A DNA stretch of 64,000 nt, from the NCBI GenBank assembly GCA_015061945.1, contig SUVP01000007.1, positions 1 through 64,000 on the forward strand, given 5' to 3'. Positions 41,856-55,032 of this stretch are shown in pieces. The notes under the pieces were generated by a model. The model did no database searches. It was not told where the DNA came from and worked only from the letters and a program-made list of their open reading frames with translations. The stretch is from Opitutales bacterium (GTDB lineage: Bacteria > Verrucomicrobiota > Verrucomicrobiia > Opitutales > Intestinicryptomonadaceae). The translations under genes were made by a program, and so were the position numbers. Within the stretch, counting starts at the first letter, position 1. The number at the start of each line of letters is the position of its first letter.

Positions 41856-43082
41856 ATGCGAACACTCCTGTTTAAACTCATTCCTTCAAACGAAATTTTA
41901 GGTATCAGCAAAGAAACACTCATAACTTTAATTATGTTGTTTGCGGTAGTCGCAATCACAATTTGTGCAACACACTTCGTGCGACTCGGCTTGATTGCTC
42001 TTTTCAAACGCATAAAAATTCATCGATACGAACAGCAAACCGAAATACTCAAAGGTCATAAAGTTTTTGCTAAAGCTTCGGCGACACTTATCCCGATATG
42101 CTTGCTTTTGTGTATACCAACAATCTTCCCTCAAGAAGATATTGGCGACCTTCTCTTTTCAACAACAAAAAAAGCACTTCTAATCTACCTATTCGCATCG
42201 CTTTGGAACTTTCTTATATCGACACTTTCAGCAATCAACGACGTCCTTTCAATTCGCACAAGAAAATCTGTACACGGCTTCATTCAAACAATTCAACTGC
42301 TCGTATCGATAATTTTTTTCGTACTGGCAATATCCACACTTTTAGATAAATCGCCACTGAATATACTCGCAGGGATTGGTGCATCAACTGCCGTATTGAT
42401 GTTCGTCTTCAAAGACACTTTGCTCGGGTTTGTCGCATCACTCCAACTATCGCTTAACGATATGCTACAAATCGGAGACTGGATTGTAATGGAAAAATAC
42501 GGAGCCGATGGTGTCGTGATTGAAATCGGGCTAACTGTCGTGAAAATTCGCAACTGGGACAACACCATAACAAACATCCCAACATACGCCCTCGTTAGCG
42601 ACGCATACCAAAATTGGCGTGGGATGAGCGAATCAGGCGGACGACGTATCAAACGCTACATCCTTATCGATATGCAATCAGTGAAATTTTGCGACGACTC
42701 TATGCTCGAACAATTCAAAAAAATTAACCTCCTTAAACCATACCTTGAACGGAAATCTCACGAGCTCGAACTTTACAACCAATCACACAATATCGACAAC
42801 TCCGTAATCGTAAACGGCAGACGCTTAACCAACCTTGGCGTGTTCCGTGCTTACATAGAACTATACCTCCAAAACAATCCAAATGTTATACAAACAATGA
42901 CTCACTTTGTCCGACAACTTCAACCAACCTCAACTGGCCTCCCCCTCGAACTATACTTCTTCACCACAACCGACTGGATTCCATACGAAAATATCCAATC
43001 CGATATCTTCGACCACATCATCGCCACCATACCTCACTTTAACCTCCGTATCTACCAACAAGAATCCGATTTTTTTACATGA
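41856..43082 (+). CDS. MscS-family mechanosensitive channel (YbdG-like)
   Basis: ILAGIGASTAVLMFVFKDTLLGFVASLQLSLNDMLQIGDWIVMEKYGADGVVIEIGLTVVKIRNWDNTITNIPTYAL. Confidence 0.92.
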   Translation: MRTLLFKLIPSNEILGISKETLITLIMLFAVVAITICATHFVRLGLIALFKRIKIHRYEQQTEILKGHKVFAKASATLIPICLLLCIPTIFPQEDIGDLLFSTTKKALLIYLFASLWNFLISTLSAINDVLSIRTRKSVHGFIQTIQLLVSIIFFVLAISTLLDKSPLNILAGIGASTAVLMFVFKDTLLGFVASLQLSLNDMLQIGDWIVMEKYGADGVVIEIGLTVVKIRNWDNTITNIPTYALVSDAYQNWRGMSESGGRRIKRYILIDMQSVKFCDDSMLEQFKKINLLKPYLERKSHELELYNQSHNIDNSVIVNGRRLTNLGVFRAYIELYLQNNPNVIQTMTHFVRQLQPTSTGLPLELYFFTTTDWIPYENIQSDIFDHIIATIPHFNLRIYQQESDFFT

Positions 43083-43185
43083 AGGGCACCGGCAGGCGAT
43101 TGCTGAAAGCAATATCGCCTGCTGATTTCGGGTTGCACAATTATACAGAAAACTCTCCAAGGCGTTGGAGAGTTTTCGTTTTAGT
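43079..43185 (+). repeat. Copy A of 3'-end hairpin-linker-terminator element
   Basis: GGGCACCGGCAGGCGATTGC-TGAAA-GCAATATCGCCTGCTGATTTCGGG...AAAACTCTCCAA-ggcg-TTGGAGAGTTTT; overlaps the TGA stop of the mscS-like gene. Confidence 0.85.
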
Positions 43186-43276
43186 TTTTTAAATGGTGTG
43201 TTTTTTGACAAAAAAGAAAAGCGTGGAAACTTGTGATTCATCGCATTCTACTCCGTCAACATCGACTGGAAGCGTA

Positions 43277-43387
43277 GGTGCCATTCCCCCGATATTCTAT
43301 TGTAAAAATGTGCAACATTTTTAGTTATTGCCAAATTACACTGGCAATAACGGCAATAGAATATCAAAGAGGTAGAATAAAAGCACC
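43277..43387. other. Three-way-junction inverted-repeat structure
   Basis: 12-bp closing stem GATATTCTATTG(43291-43302)/CAATAGAATATC(43354-43365) enclosing TAAAAATGT-gca-ACATTTTTA and GTTATTGCC-aaattacact-GGCAATAAC; outer GGTGC/GCACC. Confidence 0.8.
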
Positions 43388-43468
43388 GGTTCATCCTCAC
43401 TTTATTATTCTAAAAAAATAAATCATTAAAATAGCAACACACACAAAATAAAAATCCGAACAGGGATA

Positions 43469-43576
43469 GGAGCATTGCAAAGCAATCTCCGTAAGGGGCG
43501 ACGCCCCTTCTACGATGTGCAGGTGGCTCACCTGCTTGCAGTGGGGTTTGGGGAGGGTGCAACCAACCCTCCCCAA
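43469..43576. repeat. GC-rich array of four consecutive hairpins
   Basis: GGAG(c)ATTGC/GCAATCTCC; AAGGGGC-gac-GCCCCTT; GCAGGTG-gct-CACCTGC; TTGGGGAGGGT-gcaacca-ACCCTCCCCAA. Confidence 0.8.
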
Positions 43577-43589
43577 CATCTATTAACTC

Positions 43590-43693
43590 CTAAAACGAAA
43601 AACTGCCAACGCTTTGGCAGTTTTTCTGTAAAATCCGGCAACCCGAAATCAACAGGCGATATTGCTTTCAGCAATCGCCTGTCGGTGCCCGTC
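43590..43693 (-). repeat. Copy B of 3'-end hairpin-linker-terminator element
   Basis: Minus strand GACGGGCACCGACAGGCGATTGC-TGAAA-GCAATATCGCCTGTTGATTTCGGGTTGCC...AAAAACTGCCAA-agcg-TTGGCAGTTTTT; abuts the glgP TAG. Confidence 0.85.
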
Positions 43694-46198
43694 CTATAAA
43701 AGATGCCAAATATCTTCGGCATATTCTTTGATTGTGCGGTCGGACGAGAATTTGCCCATTCTTGCGGTATTCAAGATAGCCATTTTCGCCCATTTAGCTT
43801 TATCGAGGAATGTTTCTCCTACTTTGCGGTGCATATCGCAATATGCTTTATAATCGGCGCAGACGAGGAAGTTGTCGCCCCAATCGAGAATAGATTTTCT
43901 CATTGGCATAAATGCGTTTGGATTTTCTGGCATAAAGTAGTCAGAGACGAGCCAATCGAGAACATCTTTAAGATTTTTATCTTTTGCGTAATATTCCCAA
44001 GGGTTGTATCCACTTGCTTTGAGTTGTTGAACTTCGTCGACATTCAAGCCGAAGATGAAGATATTTTCGTCGCCGACGCATTCTTTAATTTCGACATTTG
44101 CACCGTCGAGAGTACCGATTGTGAGAGCACCGTTGAGTGCGAGCTTCATATTACCAGTGCCAGAAGCTTCTTTACCAGCTGTTGAAATTTGTTCAGAAAT
44201 ATCTGCGGCTGGAATAATTTTCATTGCTGCCGACACGCTATAATTCGGTATGAACACTACCTTAAGCATATTGTTTATGCGAGGGTCGTTATTGATTTTT
44301 TCAGCGACCTTATTGATAGCGTAGATAATATTTTTTGCGATATCATAACCTGGTGCTGCTTTTGCACCGAAGATAAATACACGTGGTGGAACTTTCATAT
44401 CGGGGTTATGGAGCAACTCGCGATAGAGAGTGAGGATATGCAACAGATTCAAATGTTGACGTTTATATTCGTGCAGACGTTTAATTTGCACGTCGAAGAG
44501 TGCATTAGGGTTAACATCAACACCGCAAGTTTCCTTGATAAATTTTGCGAGACGCTTTTTGTTTTCAAGTTTAACGTCCATAAATTTCTTTTGGAATGCG
44601 GGGTCGTCGGCATATTTTTCGAGGTCACGCAAGTTGTCGAGGTTTGTCACCCAATTTTTACCTTTAAGTTTTGAATCGATGAGATCCGACAAGCCTTGAT
44701 TGCAAACCTTGAGCCAACGGCGAGGAGTTACGCCGTTTGTCTTGTTGTTGAATTTTTCTGGCGAGACTTCGTAGAAATCTCGTAAGACAGAGCTTTTGAG
44801 CAATTCGGTATGGAGAGCTGCAACACCGTTTACGCTGAAACTTGCAACGACAGCCAAGTATGCCATACGAACCATTTTAGGATTACCTTCTTCGATAATC
44901 GACAAACACTCACGTTTGTGTGGGTCAGTCGGATAGAGTTTATTAACTTTATCCATCCAGCGAGCGTTGATTTCGTAAATAATTTGCAAGTGGCGTGGCA
45001 AAAGTTTTTCAAAGAATTTAACCGACCATTTTTCGAGTGCTTCTGGGAGCAATGTATGGTTTGTATATGCAAAAACTTTTTCGCACATCGCCCAAGCTTC
45101 GTCCCAAGGCAAACCATGGACATCCATAAGTTGACGCATAAGTTCTGGGACTGCGACAGCTGGGTGGGTATCATTCAACTGAATAACAACCTTGCTTGTG
45201 AATTTCGACCAATCCTTGTGTTCAGCCAAATATCTGCGAACAATATCTTGGAGCGAGCAAGACACAAAGAAGTATTGTTGAATCAGACGCAAATATTTTC
45301 CGTTTTCTGTTTTATCGTTTGGATACAAAACTTTTGATACAGTTTCACTCATCGCTTTTTCGTGAACGGCTTGAGTATATCCACCTTCATTGAATGCGTT
45401 GAGATCAAATTCATTTGATGCTCTTGATTCCCACAGACGCAAGAAGTTCACAGTTTCGGCACCATAACCGACAACTGGGATATCCCACGGAACACCGATA
45501 ATATCGTTAACTGGTTTCCAAACAGGTTTCCAATCGCCTTTGTCATTCATCGTGCCTTCGACTGTTCCGCCGACGGGTACTCTTACAATTCTTTGCGGAC
45601 GTACGATTTCCCATGGGCAACCAAATTTCAACCAATTATCAGGCGATTCAACTTGTCTGCCTTTGTCGAATGATTGAGTAAACAAGCCAAATTCGTATCT
45701 GATACCATAGCCGATAGCTGGATAATTGAGTGTTGCGAGCGAGTCTTGGAAACACGCTGCCAAACGTCCCAAACCGCCATTACCCAAGCCCATATCGACT
45801 TCTTGAGCGATAACTTCGTCAGGGTCTACATCGAGTTCTTCAAGGGCTTTGCGAGTTGGCTCGAGAAGATTTGTGTTCACCATCATATCTTCAGTCAATC
45901 GACCGACCAAATATTCGAGCGAGAAATAATAGACTCTGCGAGCGTCAGAATTATATTGTTTATTCATCGTTGCGATGAATCTTGGCATAACGTGGTCTCT
46001 GATAGCCAGAGCTGTAGCGACCCACCAGTCGCGTTTTGTAGCCGATGTACGAACACGTGCAAGCGATGTTTCGAGGTGCCACAAGATAGCTTTTTTCATA
46101 CCTTCCGATGTTTCGCTAATTTGGAATGGGCAAGGTTTTGCTTCTTTTAAGATTTTTTCTTTCGATACTTTTTTTACGGGAGTTTTTACTTTTTTCAT
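43694..46198 (-). CDS. glgP: Glycogen/starch phosphorylase
   Basis: [86 protein letters not shown]. Confidence 0.97.
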
Positions 46199-52917: not shown

Positions 52918-54804
52918 ATGAAAAAATTATTGTATCTATCATCACTTGTTATTGCGTCGTCAGCTTTTTGTGCAGACGCACCAAACGTAAATCCAAAGGT
53001 AAAAGATAAGTTGGCATATCCAACTTGTGGTGCTGTTGAAATGAAAGGCGTCATTGGCGACTCACTCCAAACCGCCCTCAAAGGCAACATTCTCGTTTGG
53101 GATATTGACGATTTAGTTCGCCCATTCAAAACTCGACAAGAAGAAAAACTTTGGCAGATAGAATTTTGGGGCAAGTGGTACACTTCGGCAGAATTAGCTT
53201 ACGATTTCTCACCAAGCCCTGCCCTCGATGCACGCCTAAAATACGGTGCAAATGAGCTTATCAAAACTCAAGATAAAGAAGGGTCTATCACCACCTACAA
53301 AAAAGATCACGAGTTCAAATTTAACGAAACTGGAGCTGTTGGCAACTTCCACGGCTCTTGGGATATTTGGGGCAGAAAGTATGTATTGCTTGGTTTGATG
53401 GGTGAGTTTGCACGCACAAACAATCCGAAAATTCTTGAATCGGCTTGCAGACACGCCGACTACATTCTCAAGCACATCGGTAGTAGTAAAGAAGGTAAAC
53501 GTGAGATTGTGCAAGTAGGCTGTTGGGAAGGCTTGGCATCGTCAAGTATCCTCGAACCTATGGTGCTTTTGTATCGTGCTTCGGGCGACAAACGATACCT
53601 CGATTTCTGCGAGTGGGTCGTTAAATCGTGGGAAACAAATGTCGTAAAACCTGATATTCTCAACAAGGCACTTAAGGGCGTTACTGTTTTTGATATGTTC
53701 GCTCATCCTATCGCCAACCCGAAAAAATACATCGATTATGGTCGCTCAAAAGCATATGAAATGATGTCGTGCTTCGAAGGTTTGACAGAACTCTACCGCA
53801 TAACTGGCAACCCTATTTATAAAAAAGCAGTCGACAATGTTATCAACTGCATTCGCAACAGAGAAATTACTGTTCTCGGCTCGGCAGCAATGCACGAACG
53901 CTGGAGCGACGGTGCTTTTGAACAACAACGTACCACACCATATTGGCAAGAAACTTGCGTAACTGTAACATGGATTAAATTTGCAGCTCAACTTTTGCGT
54001 CTGACTGGCGACGTAAAATATGCTAACGATATCGAAGTTTCAACTTACAATTCGATGATTGCATCGCAAGGCAAAGATGGCTCGTGGTGGTCGCACTACA
54101 ACAATATGAGCGGTATTCGCAAGCCTGCACCTGAACACTGCAAAATGCATATGAATTGCTGTGTAGCAAGTGGTCCACGTGGGCTTTTCCTCCTCCCAAA
54201 ACTCGCCTATATGACTGGCGACAACAGTGTAGTTGTCAACCTCTACGAAAACGGTGGAGCATCTCTTAAACTCGCAAACGGTAATGTCGATATAGCAATG
54301 TCTGCCCCCGACTACATCCGCAACAACACTGCCATTATGACAATTAACGGACTCACAAACGGCTCACAAAAATTCGACCTCAAGCTTCGCATCCCTGAAT
54401 GGAGCGAAAACACTCTCGTTTTTGTCAATGGCGAAAAAGTCGAAAATGTCAAATCCGGACAATATCTCTCGCTCAATCGACAATTCAAAGATGGCGACGA
54501 AATATCTATCACCTTTGACGCACGCACAAAAGTTCTTCGAGACCCCAAGAACAAAAACTTCTTTGTTCTCAAGCACGGACCTTATGTTCTCGCACAAGAT
54601 CGTCGTTTCACAAAAGATTTCGACAAGCCTGCAAGAGTTAAAATCGTCGACGGTACTGTCAACGCAACACCGACTTATCTCAAAGATACAAATGTTGCAG
54701 TTGACGTAGAAATGCAAGACGGCACAAAGCGTCGCTTTATCGACTACGCTTCAGCTGGTGCCACATGGGACAAATCCTCTGAATTCAAAATTTGGCTTTT
54801 TTAA
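52918..54804 (+). CDS. GH127-like beta-L-arabinofuranosidase (DUF1680)
   Basis: WQIEFWGKWYTSAELAYDF; QETCVTVTWIKFAAQLLRLTGD; CCVASGPRGLFLLPKLAYM. Confidence 0.82.
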   Translation: MKKLLYLSSLVIASSAFCADAPNVNPKVKDKLAYPTCGAVEMKGVIGDSLQTALKGNILVWDIDDLVRPFKTRQEEKLWQIEFWGKWYTSAELAYDFSPSPALDARLKYGANELIKTQDKEGSITTYKKDHEFKFNETGAVGNFHGSWDIWGRKYVLLGLMGEFARTNNPKILESACRHADYILKHIGSSKEGKREIVQVGCWEGLASSSILEPMVLLYRASGDKRYLDFCEWVVKSWETNVVKPDILNKALKGVTVFDMFAHPIANPKKYIDYGRSKAYEMMSCFEGLTELYRITGNPIYKKAVDNVINCIRNREITVLGSAAMHERWSDGAFEQQRTTPYWQETCVTVTWIKFAAQLLRLTGDVKYANDIEVSTYNSMIASQGKDGSWWSHYNNMSGIRKPAPEHCKMHMNCCVASGPRGLFLLPKLAYMTGDNSVVVNLYENGGASLKLANGNVDIAMSAPDYIRNNTAIMTINGLTNGSQKFDLKLRIPEWSENTLVFVNGEKVENVKSGQYLSLNRQFKDGDEISITFDARTKVLRDPKNKNFFVLKHGPYVLAQDRRFTKDFDKPARVKIVDGTVNATPTYLKDTNVAVDVEMQDGTKRRFIDYASAGATWDKSSEFKIWLF

Positions 54805-54909
54805 ATGACGGGCACCGACAAGCGATTGCCGTAGGCAATATCGCTTGTTGATTTCGGGTTGCCGATTTTACAGAAAACTCTCCAAAGCATTGGAGAGTTT
54901 TCGTTTTAG
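54805..54909 (+). repeat. Copy C of 3'-end hairpin-linker-terminator element
   Basis: ATGACGGGCACCGACAAGCGATTGCC-gta-GGCAATATCGCTTGTTGATTTCGGGTTGCCGATTTTACAGAAAACTCTCCAA-agca-TTGGAGAGTTTTCGTTTTAG; starts after the TAA of the GH127-like gene. Confidence 0.88.
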
Positions 54910-54917
54910 TATTTTAT

Positions 54918-55019
54918 ATGACGGGCACCGACAAGCGATTGACAAAGTCAATATCGCTTGTTGATTTCGGATTGCCGATTTCACAAAAAAACTCTCCAAA
55001 AATCTTGGAGAGTTTTTTT
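54918..55019 (+). repeat. Copy D of 3'-end hairpin-linker-terminator element, tandem to copy C
   Basis: ATGACGGGCACCGACAAGCGATTGAC-aaa-GTCAATATCGCTTGTTGATTTCGGATTGCCGATTTCACAAAAAAACTCTCCAA-aaatc-TTGGAGAGTTTTTTT; 113 bp from copy C. Confidence 0.88.
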
Positions 55020-55032
55020 GTTTTCTTTGCGG

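Follow-up and report, generated by a model that had tools for sequence, protein, structure and literature searches.

The kinds of bacterial repeat closest to the one described here are the BIME/REP/REPIN elements and the bacterial MITEs. BIME and REP elements consist of palindromic units in opposite orientation, arranged in mosaic order and in tandem clusters, and they lie after stop codons and in the gaps between convergent genes and show compensatory stem changes (PMC2817692, PMC3733652, PMC12306157); a REP carries an unpaired GTAG or CGTC tag directly at the foot of its stem (PMC3733652). REPINs are inverted doublets around a spacer, whose singlets look like decayed remnants (PMC3116915). 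Bacterial MITEs, such as ERIC, Correia/NEMIS, RUP and BrickBuilt of Porphyromonas gingivalis, are non-coding, dispersed and highly base-paired with inverted ends, and BrickBuilt has tandem internal repeats between a leader and a tail (PMC2229807, PMC4596501). The repeat studied here resembles all of these in the properties listed other than the tag, and was found in a window of 64,000 nucleotides (the whole stretch of DNA that was analysed) from an Opitutales bacterium.

A previous sequence-only reading had described nested inverted repeats at 43277-43387, forming a three-way junction (3WJ), and all of them were found in the sequence as described. Alignment of the copies with their flanks showed that the 3WJ is the middle part of a 613-bp non-coding repeat island (43081-43693), which lies between convergent genes for an MscS-type channel and a glycogen phosphorylase-like protein. 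The ends of the island are inverted copies of one module of ~115 bp, which we named T, and the ~385-bp core between them has a 5′ part that varies, followed by the 3WJ and by four GC-rich hairpins, among them those of a REP-like block (GGGATAGGAG.ATTGC..GCAATCTCCGTAAGGGGC..GCCCCTT). The features are as follows.

43080-43082: stop codon of the MscS-type channel gene
43081-43693, + strand: whole composite island (left T, core, right T inverted)
43069-43187, + strand: left T module with T-rich leader (TTTTTTTACATGAAGGGCACCGGC...)
43092-43122, + strand: T hairpin 1, REP-like, with an exchangeable outer stem
43148-43177, + strand: T hairpin 2, predicted intrinsic terminator hairpin, 5′ side A-rich and 3′ side T-rich
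43188-43276, + strand: 5′ part of the core, more variable among copies
43277-43387, + strand: 3WJ including the outer pair of GGTGC (43277-43281) with GCACC (43383-43387)
43291-43365, + strand: strict 3WJ, a 12-bp closing stem and two 9-bp hairpins with GG unpaired
43291-43302: closing stem, 5′ arm, GATATTCTATTG
43303-43323: first hairpin, 9 bp perfect, TAAAAATGT-gca-ACATTTTTA
43324-43351: second hairpin, 9 bp perfect, GTTATTGCC-aaattacact-GGCAATAAC
43352-43353: unpaired junction bases gg
43354-43365: closing stem, 3′ arm, CAATAGAATATC
43463-43509, + strand: REP-like hairpin pair (GGAG..CTCC, 43469-43490; AAGGGGC..GCCCCTT, 43493-43509)
43519-43574, + strand: two further GC-rich core hairpins (GCAGGTG..CACCTGC; GGGGAGGGT..ACCCTCCCC)
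43587-43705, − strand: right T module, inverted, its leader end abutting the phosphorylase stop codon
43694-46198, − strand: convergent glycogen phosphorylase-like gene, stop at 43694

The RNA fold of 43260-43410 reaches -44 kcal/mol compared to -25.8 ± 3.2 in 200 dinucleotide shuffles (z = -5.72), none of which was as low as the real sequence, and the minimum free energy and centroid folds have the same 3WJ topology. Searching the organism's own 2.52-Mb genome with the 126-bp 3WJ region returned 12 copies at 94-98% identity, 10 of them whole at the junction and two cut by contig ends, so that the structure is a structured intergenic repeat, as had been proposed, and is not single-copy. Few parts of the island are as conserved as the 3WJ, and the whole core folds well, with z about -7 on both strands. 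There is no open reading frame of note in the 3WJ region and none common to the repeat copies, which bears out the earlier statement that no ORF explains the structure; across the island no ORF is conserved either, and the longest open stretches are not the same from copy to copy or from frame to frame. Seven islands are intact at both ends and carry the inverted T modules. At three of the sites (C2, C5 and C12c), one of the two T modules points towards the beginning of the neighbouring gene rather than a gene end, indicating that both T modules belong to the island and are not merely the terminator of each gene. Core copies stand in tandem at the start of contig C8, which is a contig end, and the 3′ half of the core is duplicated at C4 and C11.

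The T module consists of a T-rich leader (TTTTTTATATGACGGGCACCGGC), the REP-like hairpin and the terminator hairpin (AGAAAACTCTCC..GGAGAGTTTTCGTTTTAG). With a covariance model, about 49 T places are picked up in the genome; some are nearly identical and others badly decayed. Of the 44-49 T modules, many have no core. In 44 aligned copies, 98.2% of the stem pair cells are standard, and 142 cells are doubly changed compared to 42.6 in shuffles, with 0 of 500 shuffles as high; slid controls collapse far below the real alignment. One-sided changes that keep the pair are absent from the 29 better T copies. The stems instead exist as discrete alleles (CTCTCC, ACTGCC, ACTGGC and GACCACC), which combine freely with the hairpin-1 alleles.

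In position, 27 of the 49 T modules begin no more than 20 bp after a stop codon on their own strand, whereas 4.6% of intergenic points drawn at random do so. The MscS gene ends at a TGA that the left T leader provides, and the protein ends in ..ESDFFT* here versus ..ESDKT* in the relative G007, which has no T at this place; the reading frames of a MiaB-like gene and of QueC likewise run into T and take their stop codons from it. Hairpin 2, a G+C stem followed by a T tail directly after genes, has the form of an intrinsic (Rho-independent) terminator, and this form, the position and the covariation together suggest that T terminates transcription. The genes flanking the islands are ordinary genes of the chromosome (NusA, EF-Ts, QueC, YbaB, pyruvate formate-lyase-like, MscS and one tyrosine recombinase). 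The last of these, a gene of 331 aa (L015 4726-5721), directly adjoins the C11 island, which may be a coincidence. A second T site in the window (54795-55027) has two T modules in direct tandem without a core; the pair begins 2 bp beyond the stop codon of a gene of 628 aa and faces a convergent 684-aa gene.

The core copies differ from each other in a mosaic manner: 370 of the 528 pairs of informative core sites (70%) fail the four-gamete test, showing that the copies exchange sequence, provided that the assembly has resolved the repeats correctly. The repeats also show the dispersal of the family to many places in the genome. Variable sites avoid the predicted stems in the 3WJ (p = 0.012), in 43277-43390 (p = 0.0026) and in the REP block (p = 0.001), and the 3WJ stems have a single variable base among the copies, at 43315, where a T-G pair is kept. 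No compensatory pair changes occur within the 3WJ among the copies of this genome, which are too alike to show them. The avoidance of stems thus supports a constraint on folding and is not independent covariation, and the bias towards loops could partly come from a DNA process that homogenises palindromes.

Searches of 18 further genomes of the family and of ~290 genomes of the order did not find the 3WJ. Two apparent matches in one order genome (G024) are plain long hairpins and do not extend its distribution; that genome has long hairpin repeats of its own (GATAGCGATTTTT..AAAATGCGCAGCATTTT..), which match the 3WJ model weakly (L159 1501-1610 and L160 1501-1608). The sole 20-mer match among 85,488 species is a chance hit without a model match, and a phage or plasmid origin was rejected, with no 3WJ match in viral contigs or in phage or plasmid records. 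For T, the covariance model gave one weak match, in one of the relatives' genomes.

Hairpins related to the core REP block are frequent in the sister genomes G001 and G009, and G001 has a 72-bp tandem array of about nine units of the REP-like hairpin GGGGATAGGAGCATTGCGAATGCAATCTCCG (G001:C2, about 703116-703786; L158 2617-3287). In G009, the closest sister species, the T leader (TTTATATGNNGGGCACC; TTTATATGTTGGGCACC) is present at nine sites (a control gave zero in this genome), where it heads quite different mosaic islands built of other long palindromes, including ACGTGCGAG..., terminator hairpins inside long stems, and TTTTGCGAGC-hairpin-GTGAGTCGATGCAAAA units. Some of these islands start 2-3 bp after stop codons, and several are at contig ends (L186-L190). 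The occurrence of one leader in such different islands indicates that the architecture is common to the sister species and that the modules turn over fast. At one G009 site, the T leader is joined to the REP-like hairpin TTTTTTTATATGTTGGGCACCGAAGGAGATTGCTTTGCAATACTCC (G009:C21:100655-100751, − strand; L169 about 2655-2751), which suggests that T hairpin 1 and the core REP block are related. The MscS locus offered no clean empty site in the relatives, where the surrounding gene order is not conserved.

Several explanations can be set against these data. Base composition alone would favour chance palindromes in an A+T-rich intergenic gap, but the fold score (z = -5.7) and the 12 near-identical 3WJ copies, the number of which refutes chance, leave this explanation a negligible one; the structure is real, as the sequence-only reading had held on the improbability of the nested repeats. 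It is also unlikely that the core is a multi-copy non-coding RNA gene with its own promoter and the 3WJ fold, and with T or the GC-rich hairpins as its terminator. The conservation of the 3WJ, the avoidance of stems by variable sites, the fold of the whole core and the terminator-like modules on both sides would all suit an RNA gene. However, a promoter scan of the island found one candidate compared to 1.2 expected in shuffles and thus none above chance, Rfam gave no match at the gathering score, the element was not found in other species, the 3WJ is without covariation, and the antisense strand folds equally strongly, as expected of a DNA palindrome. With the core between inward-facing terminators and no promoter above chance, it is likelier that the core acts as DNA or is a passenger.

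As to how the family moves, mobility is something we infer only from the dispersal of the copies. The sequence-only reading had offered an IS200/IS605-type substrate or a MITE relic, with target-site duplications as a check. A REPIN-like single-strand substrate of an IS200/IS605-type (Y1, RAYT) enzyme would account for inverted hairpin doublets by stop codons, compensatory stem changes, and clusters or tandem arrays, as in REPINs and BIMEs (PMC3116915, PMC2817692). The Y1 transposase domain (PF01797) is absent from this genome (G000) and from 13 other genomes of the genus, in which the positive controls were found, and this largely refutes the idea and makes such a substrate very unlikely. As to an attC-type site, which the same reading had offered and which would be an integrase-bound core site in a cassette array next to intI, gene cassettes or an integron context were not seen at the islands, where the neighbours are scattered housekeeping genes. 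A MITE, relic or active, of a cut-and-paste (DDE) or other transposon is possible but doubtful; T would then be its terminal inverted repeat, with the transposase lost or encoded in the missing 3% of the assembly, which is 97% complete. The inverted ~115-bp ends, their occurrence both solo and double, the A+T-rich leader and the dispersal to chromosomal housekeeping loci speak for it, and with 12 copies bearing inverted ends a MITE-like origin is plausible. Target-site duplications did not appear: there is no direct repeat outside the ends of the seven islands, although the A/T-rich leaders limit this test. In addition, all 27 GGGCACCGGC sites are within T modules, no matching autonomous transposon with T ends was present among the sites examined, the flanking genes scanned in this 97% complete assembly include no transposase, solo T modules are common, and compensatory stem change at the ends is unusual for terminal inverted repeats read by a protein. 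Finally, a genus-level system without Y1 may place species-specific structured modules, including the multi-branched 3WJ, precisely after stop codons, with the folded module as the substrate of a putative recombination or copying enzyme; we consider this improbable.

We favour a non-coding, BIME/MITE-like composite repeat that settles at the 3′ ends of genes and carries a terminator of its own, and we give this reading a probability of about 0.7. The island is built of two inverted T modules around the structured core of ~385 bp. T would act as a gene-end cap, landing at or just after the stop codon and able to give the stop itself, and its two-hairpin intrinsic terminator would end the transcript of the gene. 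The core, with the 3WJ and the REP-like hairpins, would be a structured passenger between inward-facing terminators, and is more likely to act as DNA (a cruciform or single-stranded hairpin serving as a recombination or protein-binding site) than as a read-through RNA. If this composite-repeat reading is true, the island is a mosaic repeat whose ends are terminators with exchangeable stems and whose spread remodels the 3′ ends of genes together with their stop codons. Its turnover would be fast, as only the leader and the REP-like hairpins are common with the sister species. It would also be a tractable case of REP-like spread without RAYT, a question which is open for CGTC-tagged REPs too (PMC3733652).

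Compared to the described systems, the family has many palindromic extragenic units, the 44-49 T modules, with inverted pairs around the core, as in BIME and REP elements. Each unit is, however, a predicted terminator of ~115 bp with two hairpins and a long T-rich leader, where BIME/REP units have 20-40 bp; there are ~45 copies and a 3WJ core, and no RAYT in the genus. A GTAG tag is also lacking, and no stem follows immediately on a CGTC-like end: T begins with ..TATATGACGGGCACCGGC, whose GACG reads CGTC on the opposite strand but stands apart from the stem. Where a REPIN doublet is similar in outline, the spacer here is ~385 bp with structured modules of its own, again without RAYT. Like MITEs, the island has terminal inverted repeats and no coding capacity, but it exceeds the 100-200 bp that is usual for them, no target-site duplication was seen, a partner IS was not found, and its ends are predicted terminators at stop codons. 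From ordinary intrinsic terminators, T differs in that it belongs to a dispersed family of homologous repeats whose members share a leader and carry a second hairpin. Without the tag and RAYT of the one kind, and without the target-site duplications and known partner of the other, the island is BIME-like in its working and MITE-like in its looks.
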